Assembly: GCF_900177685.1 (NCBI RefSeq)
Contig: NZ_FXAY01000004.1
Coordinates: 1 to 64,000, forward strand
DNA length: 64,000 nucleotides
Direction: 5' to 3'
Source: Agreia pratensis
Lineage (GTDB): Bacteria; Actinomycetota; Actinomycetes; Actinomycetales; Microbacteriaceae
The translations under genes and the position numbers were made by a program. This document shows, piece by piece, positions 61,094 to 62,393 of this stretch; the first letter of the stretch is position 1, and each line of letters starts with the position of its first letter. The notes under the pieces were generated by a model. That model was not told the origin of the DNA and did no database searches. It worked only from the letters and a program-made list of their open reading frames with translations.

Positions 61094-61148
61094 TGTCCAT
61101 GGATTGTCAGTCCCTTGTTGCCACGGGGGTGTACCGCCACCATGGACA
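61094..61148. promoter_or_regulatory. Paired CCATGG sites in the SDR-regulator intergenic region
   Basis: TGTCCATGG (61094-61102) and CCATGGACA (61140-61148) are perfect inverted copies; each contains the palindrome TCCATGGA or CCATGG. The second copy abuts the regulator start (61150). They are candidate binding sites for the XRE regulator on the divergent promoter. Confidence 0.45.
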
Positions 61149-61149
61149 C

Positions 61150-61986
61150 ATGGACAGACCCGCACTCGCCGACTTTTTGAGGCGTCGCCGCGAGGCCCTG
61201 AAGCCGCGCGACGTCGGGCTGCTCGATGGATCACGTCGTCGAACTCCCGGCCTCAAGCGCGAGGAGGTCGCCCTGCTCGTGGGCATGTCGACCGACTACT
61301 ACTCGAGGCTCGAGCAGCAGCGAGGCCCGCAGCCGTCGGAGCAGATGGTGGCCGCGATCGCCCGCGGGCTGCGACTGACTCCCGACGAGCGCGACCATCT
61401 GTTCCGGCTCACTGGGCACAACGCACCCCGTCGCGCTCTCGCGACGAAACACGTCTCGCCCGCGCTGATGCGGGTGCTCGATCGACTCGACGACACCCCG
61501 GCCCTCGTTCTCTCAGACCTCGCAGAGACTCTGGCGCAGAACGCGATGGCGACAGCATTGCTCGGCGACGAGACGCGGTTCAGCGGCCTGGCCGCAAGCG
61601 CGGTATACCGCTGGTTCACCGACCCCGAGGCGCGCGGCCGGTATCCCGAGCGCGACCACGAGCACCAGAGCCGCATCCAAGTCGCCGCGCTACGCGCATC
61701 CGTCTCGGCCTCGGGCGATTCCGAGCACGGCCGGGCGATCGTCTCCGAGCTGCTGGCGACAAGCGAGGAGTTCGCGGCGATCTGGGAGCTGCACGAGGTG
61801 CGCAATCGCTTCGACGATCACAAGACGCTGGTGCACCCGGAAATCGGCGAGATCGAGGTGGACTGCCAGGCGCTGTTCACCGAGAATCTGTCGCAGACAC
61901 TGCTCGTGCTCACGGCGTCACCCGGAACCGAGGCTGCCGAGAAGCTGGCGCTCCTCCGGGTGGTGGGTAACCAGACCTTCGCCTAG
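61150..61986 (+). CDS. XRE-family regulator with MmyB-like ligand domain
   Basis: A 278-residue transcriptional regulator. The N-terminal HTH (LADFLRRRREALKPRDVGL..RRTPGLKREEVALLVGMSTDYYSRLEQQRGPQPS, about 5-65) is the HTH_31 type of the MmyB/streptomycete family. The C-terminal part (about 90-270) has the PAS-like MmyB ligand fold: LDDTPALVLSDLAETLAQNAMATALLGD, FTDPEARGRYPE and ENLSQTLLVLTASPGTEAAEKLALL. ATG at 61150 is in frame after the CCATGG site. It is divergent from the SDR gene, likely its target. Effector unknown. Confidence 0.88.
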   Translation: MDRPALADFLRRRREALKPRDVGLLDGSRRRTPGLKREEVALLVGMSTDYYSRLEQQRGPQPSEQMVAAIARGLRLTPDERDHLFRLTGHNAPRRALATKHVSPALMRVLDRLDDTPALVLSDLAETLAQNAMATALLGDETRFSGLAASAVYRWFTDPEARGRYPERDHEHQSRIQVAALRASVSASGDSEHGRAIVSELLATSEEFAAIWELHEVRNRFDDHKTLVHPEIGEIEVDCQALFTENLSQTLLVLTASPGTEAAEKLALLRVVGNQTFA

Positions 61987-62012
61987 CCTGGATGTATGGC
62001 CGCACGTTGTGG

Positions 62013-62056
62013 CCGCCGGACGAGGGCGCAGTACCCGGAACGCGACAAGACTGACC
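62013..62056 (+). ncRNA. Guanidine-III riboswitch (ykkC-III)
   Basis: The conserved core matches class III: CCGGACGAGG at 62016-62025, CCCGG at 62034-62038, and GACAAGAC at 62044-62051. CCGG (62016-62019) pairs with CCGG (62035-62038), and CAGT (62029-62032) pairs with ACTG (62050-62053) as a pseudoknot. The RBS AAGGAG (62063-62068) lies just after it, so translation control is expected. A likely -10 TAGCCT is at 61984-61989. It precedes a SugE/Gdx-type exporter, its known partner. Confidence 0.9.
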
Positions 62057-62078
62057 ACCACTAAGGAGTGGAACAGTC

Positions 62079-62393
62079 ATGTCTTGGATCGTCCTCGTCA
62101 TCTCCGGAATCCTCGAAGCCGTGTGGGCCACAGCCCTCGGCAAGTCAGAGGGATTCACGCGGCTCTGGCCGAGCGTCATATTCGTCGGCGCGCTCGTCTT
62201 GAGCATGGCCGGCCTGGCGTATTCGATGCGCGACATCCCCGTGGGCACGTCGTATGCCGTGTGGGTCGGAATCGGCGCCGCCCTGACTGTGGGGTATGCG
62301 ATGTTTTTCGGGGGAGAGGGAGTCTCTGTGGTGAAGCTGCTTCTCGTGCTCGGCATCGTGTCCTGCGTCGTCGGACTGAAGGTGCTGCACTGA
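62079..62393 (+). CDS. sugE: SMR-family guanidinium exporter (SugE/Gdx type)
   Basis: A 104-residue, four-helix small multidrug resistance protein. Helix 1 contains the essential Glu13 in VISGILEAVWATALG, and the GTSYAVWVGIGAALTVGYAMFFGGE block and WATALGKSEGFTRLWP match the SugE/Gdx branch rather than EmrE/QacE. The branch exports guanidinium in exchange for protons, and the class III riboswitch upstream supports that. AAGGAG lies 10 nt before ATG. The regulatory coupling means expression should rise with guanidine. Confidence 0.92.
   Translation: MSWIVLVISGILEAVWATALGKSEGFTRLWPSVIFVGALVLSMAGLAYSMRDIPVGTSYAVWVGIGAALTVGYAMFFGGEGVSVVKLLLVLGIVSCVVGLKVLH

Follow-up and report, generated by a model that had tools for sequence, protein, structure and literature searches.

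A guanidine-III riboswitch upstream of a putative Gdx-type SMR exporter gene of Agreia pratensis, with a predicted alternative pairing at the start codon

Results

The aptamer and its helices

The stretch of DNA analysed here, hereafter the window, comprises 64,000 nucleotides of the genome of Agreia pratensis, and the RNA, its helices and the exporter gene described below lie on the forward (+) strand. A scan with the Rfam covariance models (cmscan) gave a match to RF01763 (Guanidine-III) at positions 61994-62059, with 52.6 bits against a gathering score of 36 and an E-value of 4.8e-8, and this match covered model positions 1-67 of 67, i.e., the full length of the model. It was the sole match in the whole 64-kb window to reach the gathering score of its own family, and the guanidine-III core pattern was present once in the 64 kb, with no copy in 100 shuffled sequences. 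The riboswitch put forward in the original prediction has thus passed the covariance-model test, well over the gathering score, and the conserved blocks and complementary segments named there were all read in the sequence between 62016 and 62053: the core block CCGGACGAGG (62016-62025), CAGT (62029-62032), CCCGG (62034-62038), the core block GACAAGAC (62044-62051), and ACTG (62050-62053), which is complementary to CAGT. The RNA, a ribosome binding site and a gene were also said to be visible together, and so they are, with the Shine-Dalgarno sequence AAGGAG (62063-62068, 10 nt before the ATG), the start codon ATG at 62079 and a stop codon ending at 62393. Two details of position needed correction. 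The aptamer begins at about 61994 and not at 62013, a limit that cuts off its 5' hairpin (61999-62013), and the spacing of 23 nt to the gene becomes 19 nt when taken from the end of the Rfam match, or 22 nt from the last P2 nucleotide (62056 in the Rfam alignment), which still places the start of the SMR gene near a ribosome binding site just past the match. The region 61994-62059 is confirmed as a genuine, ordinary example of the known guanidine-III riboswitch class, whose members respond to guanidine, a toxic compound.

The 5' hairpin (model positions 6-20) is drawn after the Rfam structure line, and here it also forms in the MFE fold. Beyond it, the pseudoknot helix P1 joins CCGG at 62016-62019 to CCGG at 62035-62038, while helix P2 joins CAGU at 62029-62032 to ACUG at 62050-62053; the latter nucleotides, paired in P2 in the ON state, also belong to the predicted OFF helix described below. 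Among 127 distinct aptamers, P1 was fully paired (G-U allowed) in 125, as CCGG/CCGG in 99, GCGG/CCGC in 20, CCCG/CGGG in three, TCGG/CCGA in one and with a G-U in two, and P2 was fully paired over its four inner base pairs in 117, the types being CAGU/ACUG (58), CCGU/ACGG (45), ACGU/ACGU (8), AAGU/ACUU (4) and UCGU/ACGA (2); these figures count sequences rather than evolutionary events, each helix having several compensated types. Judged from these aligned sequences, both pseudoknot helices, P1 and P2, covary. The P2 of the window is short, since CAGU:ACUG is followed in the Rfam alignment by two mismatched pairs and then by one G-C, and these two non-standard pairs could be read as signs of a decayed or non-functional copy. 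Such a reading is nevertheless very improbable in view of the aptamer core, which shows no difference among the seven genus members with a match, and of the 4-bp CAGU/ACUG itself, which occurs as inner P2 more often than any other type (58 of the 127 distinct aptamers).

The exporter gene and its neighbourhood

The gene at 62079-62393 encodes a product of 104 aa that carries an SMR domain (Pfam PF00893, 76.1 bits, cut-off 23.7). Its nearest solved structure was Gdx-Clo (6wk5, 6wk8 and others), at 70.1 bits with residues 1-102 matched, followed by the near-identical sequence 8vxu (68.3 bits) and then by EmrE sequences at 41.9 bits and below. In a pairwise alignment, G10, E13, W16, S42, Y59 and W62 are common to the exporter and Gdx-Clo, residue 16 of the exporter being a W that aligns to W16 of Gdx-Clo. 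In the account given in PMC7695847, 6WK5, 6WK8 and 6WK9 are structures of Gdx-Clo, which transports guanidinium whereas EmrE does not; the substrate site of Gdx-Clo includes E13, W16, S42 and W62, and W16 is conserved in Gdx, the Qac subtype having Gly or Ala in its place. With Gdx-Clo as the nearest solved relative, and with W16 kept, sequence comparison supports the assignment of the protein of the window as a Gdx-type SMR exporter, a predicted guanidinium pump. In NCBIfam, the SugE equivalog model NF008512 was the best of the 21 models listed, with 93.7 bits where the EmrE subfamily model reached 39.0, and it stayed below its curated cut-off of 126 bits, so that "Gdx-type SMR exporter" is a safer name than "SugE". 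The designation of this gene as a SugE/Gdx exporter accordingly holds for the Gdx type, with Gdx-Clo nearest and W16 kept, and has to be dropped as regards the SugE name.

Upstream of the RNA, a gene for an MmyB-type HTH regulator (61147-61986) ends 7 nt before the aptamer, and a regulator of this type, together with a divergent SDR gene, lies upstream in six of the seven genus loci, that of the window included. It was rejected as part of the unit and is regarded as a neighbour, because locus L006 keeps the RNA and the exporter without the regulator.

Other loci of the same genome touch on the same subject. Two further SMR genes stand in tandem on another contig (G000:C10:942975-943609) and probably form a paired exporter; an Rfam search of about 3 kb surrounding one of the two (L210; E up to 0.01) detected no RNA. 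A Guanidine-I-like RNA, with 49.3 bits against a curated score of 63 and an E-value of 1.2e-7, was also observed (L149:1501-1608, corresponding to G000:C3:150021-150128). It precedes a gene for an EamA-type transporter with a weak match (106 of 288 bits) to phn_DUF6, a phosphonate-associated model, and the ORF after this gene resembles, by eye, a binding protein.

Structure of the leader

No terminator-like site was found between 61700 and 62500, and terminator-based control was rejected on that ground. A sigma-70 scan recognised no promoter in the same interval, other promoter types being outside that scan.

The core of the Shine-Dalgarno sequence lies in the loop of an inner hairpin, CCACU-AAGG-AGUGG (62058-62071), which in one congener (L002) reads GCU-AAGG-AGC, with one compensated pair and with the outermost pair lost. 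Around this hairpin, folding indicated that GACUG (62049-62053) can pair with CAGUC (62074-62078). On a larger scale, the conserved core strand GACAAGACUG (62044-62053) is complementary to the start-region strand CAGUCAUGUC (62074-62083) at nine of ten positions, and the resulting helix, one A-A excepted, spans the start codon in a conformer of -16.9 kcal/mol. The MFE structure of 62044-62100 (-18.3 kcal/mol) likewise ties the aptamer strand to the start region; for 62044-62090, the fold has a z-score of -2.69, and three of 200 shuffled sequences equalled or bettered its energy. The predicted pairing of positions -3 to +5 (relative to the start) with aptamer positions 52-64 had a probability of 0.87 in the window's own leader. 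These folding results, together with the conservation of GUC reported below, single out GACAAGACUG as the predicted OFF partner of the start region, and we are inclined, with some reserve, to consider this start-site helix as the OFF state in the window.

Distribution of the RNA and the exporter

At E-values up to 0.001, the RNA was found in seven of eight genomes of the genus, that of the window included (all seven over the gathering score), in 146/299 genomes of the family (138 over it), in 121/248 of the order (114) and in 38/296 of the phylum (31), in samples that overlap and with stricter filters in the family, order and phylum searches. The order search listed 124 matches, 10 of which were already in the set, and 90 of the other 114 were added (30 + 60). 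Of 238 loci inspected in the family and the order (236 with the core by pattern and two without it, L143 and L144), 222 had an SMR gene downstream, as judged by an SMR profile to which some of these loci had themselves contributed. Seven of the 236 core loci were first without an assigned gene; L129, L132 and L261 were then found to precede CBU_0592 genes, and L142, L147, L148 and L271 were left without an assigned gene. The phylum loci were scanned on the given strand only, and rows without a gene there are not evidence of absence.

A separate named collection was also considered. The core lay at most 160 nt upstream in 77 of its 80 best-matching exporter genes (the best 80 of 580 relatives), with up to three substitutions allowed, of which there were none in 66 loci and one to three in 11. 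Arthrobacter, Cryobacterium, Rhodococcus, Nocardia, Mycobacterium and Kineosporia were among the genera with core-bearing exporter loci. Because of this wide co-occurrence in the genome samples and in the named collection, a unit made of a guanidine-III RNA and a Gdx-type exporter is standard in many actinobacteria.

In several genomes (G008, G013, G021, G028, G054, G056, G063 and others), the guanidine-III RNA stands before two consecutive SMR genes, possibly a paired exporter under the same switch.

Conservation at the start codon

The leaders were compared in a set reduced from 222 SMR loci to 218 with a start, 198 of them distinct, and finally to 196 with GAC at aptamer positions 57-59 and a linker of 14-40 nt. 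The trinucleotide GUC stands directly before the start codon in 122 of the 198 distinct riboswitch-linked leaders versus one of 22 aptamer-less SMR starts (Fisher p 1.2e-7), these controls being mostly paralogues, nine of them close relatives. With the nine closest controls only, the figure was 1/9 (p 0.004), and in orthologues without the aptamer, a better control of three members only, it was 0/3. In the named collection, GUC was found in 39 of the 77 aptamer-bearing loci. Once exporters were merged into clusters, its mean frequency was 0.51 over 73 clusters at 80% identity and 0.41 over 13 clusters at 70%, and it occurred in only four of the 14 phylum-sample loci outside the family with a resolved SMR start. 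Just past the first base of the start codon, UGUC occupies +2 to +5 in 110/196 leaders, 68 of the 196 having both GUC and UGUC.

The main predicted partner of GUC is G57-A58-C59 of the aptamer, at a mean probability of about 0.44 over the 196 leaders, and two of the aptamer positions 57-59 are needed by P2 in the ON state. In natural leaders, positions -3 to +5 pair with aptamer positions 52-64 at a mean probability of 0.50, exceeding 0.5 in 105 of 196 cases; in chimeras that join the same aptamer ends to aptamer-less SMR leaders, mean pairing falls to 0.115.

These two results bear on a reading in which the aptamer is real but acts mainly through mRNA stability, the ligand-folded pseudoknot blocking RNase E scanning and the start-site complementarity being minor. 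An effect on RNase E is indeed stated, beside translational control, in the relevant part of PMC12186494, which cites Richards and Belasco (2021). Control exerted mainly in this way is nonetheless unlikely, in that it leaves unexplained both the GUC before the start in 122/198 leaders and the excess of pairing over the chimeras, and the two effects can coexist.

Covariation was sought in the OFF helix by swapping linkers between P2 classes (112 leaders), and own and swapped linkers hardly differed in pairing (0.748 versus 0.728, p 0.03; MFE p 0.13). A link between aptamer position 60 and position -4 was seen when exporters were merged at 90% (p 0.004) and vanished at 80% (median p 0.53). The OFF helix, as modelled, is without covariation, and its support comes from conservation and from folding. 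As regards a translational ON switch, an exclusive pairing of the start codon with the aptamer strand was thus predicted and recurrent, with covariation absent.

It may accordingly be asked whether translation is controlled by the Shine-Dalgarno hairpin CCACU-AAGG-AGUGG, or by pairing with the coding region, with the aptamer core strand unused and GUC merely an inherited start context. The core-strand helix has no independent covariation, many relatives offer, on visual inspection, local hairpins around the Shine-Dalgarno sequence (uncounted), and the compensated inner-hairpin pair of L002 points in the same direction, though the outermost pair is lost there. We regard this reading as rather doubtful, since the retention of GUC in about half of the exporter clusters merged at 80% identity, and in about half of the aptamer-bearing loci of the named collection, speaks against mere inheritance. 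Pairing of the core strand with the start region remains our preferred reading for the OFF state.

As for the ON state, a crude emulation left the Shine-Dalgarno core in the CCACU-AAGG-AGUGG loop, and the AUG re-paired with coding sequence, so that folding alone does not show full release of the start site. Binding would bring a change in the folding energy at the start rather than a clean release.

Guanidine-III RNAs before CBU_0592-type genes

In three families of the order, ten guanidine-III matches that exceed the gathering score are followed by a gene for a small membrane protein and not by an SMR gene. Eight of these matches belong to the window's family (L058, L071, L082, L106, L117, L129, L131 and L132) and two lie elsewhere in the order (L257 in G365 and L261 in G388); in an eleventh, weak case (G482:C1:1258097-1258321), the RNA reached 35.0 of 36 bits and the protein 21.7 of 25. 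All eight family proteins scanned, as well as the genes of G365 and G388, passed the 25-bit cut-off of the CBU_0592 family (NCBIfam). The SMR sample included three of these genomes (G015, G062 and G064), and none of the three showed an SMR gene. When 20 CBU_0592 loci of the order were scanned with Rfam, a guanidine riboswitch was present at one, that of the G365 gene (L307), and only a minority of CBU_0592 genes have the guanidine-III link. In a limited literature search, a link between CBU_0592 and guanidine riboswitches was not found in print. The association suggests that a second kind of guanidine transporter may exist, for which the CBU_0592-type protein is a candidate.

Five of these RNAs (L117, L129, L131, L132 and L257), from three genera and two families, are missing two A's, the same ones in each, from GACAAGAC, which is nearly invariant elsewhere. 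Their P1 is intact, and their P2 is kept except for a C-A pair that is also found in canonical copies such as L058. They represent a variant of guanidine-III in which the ligand or the affinity has perhaps changed.

Discussion

The guanidine-III riboswitch ahead of this Gdx-type SMR gene, in its 5' leader, very probably works as a translational ON switch; ligand binding, switching and guanidinium export are what we infer here from sequence. Translational ON control, as already proposed (PMC5696562; PMC12186494), is the most likely mode because no terminator was found. From a mechanistic point of view, the 3' strand of the aptamer, GACAAGACUG, would pair in the absence of guanidine with CAGUCAUGUC around the start codon, and this OFF helix would close the hairpin over the Shine-Dalgarno sequence. 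Guanidine would then stabilise the pseudoknot (P1 CCGG:CCGG, P2 CAGU:ACUG) and recapture the aptamer strand, and the formation of the pseudoknot would lower the structure over the start site, allowing the exporter to be made.

A more general rule can be put forward only tentatively, on the basis of modelled pairing. The invariant ligand-binding strand GACAAGAC might double as an anti-start-codon strand, pairing in the OFF state across the start codon with GUCAUGUC, for which seven of eight pairs are possible; this extension to the class we hold to be somewhat less likely than its converse. With the two strands nearly constant, such a pairing would stay hidden from an ordinary covariation analysis. 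If it is true, the second codon of the exporter and the three bases before its start would be held by the riboswitch.

Comparison with the described members of the class shows how little of this departs from what is known. The guanidine-III (ykkC-III) RNA of T. fusca, whose crystal structure 5NWQ is reported in PMC5696562, has the same core blocks, an H-type pseudoknot and a ribosome binding site close downstream, as far as that report describes them; unlike the class presented there, the P2 of the window is short, with a two-pair mismatch. In its remarks on mechanism, PMC5696562 considers that class III RNAs, once folded, are likely to expose the ribosome binding site and calls the mechanism "less well established", and a review of 2025 (PMC12186494) describes, for guanidine-III, an action on translation, plus protection from RNase E. 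The start-site helix would make this less settled class III mechanism testable with two small mutants. The pairing proposed for the OFF state at the start codon is the only fresh detail here and may be taken as a testable refinement of a known class: where those remarks of PMC5696562 speak only of "competing structures", a specific OFF partner, located at the start codon, is proposed here.
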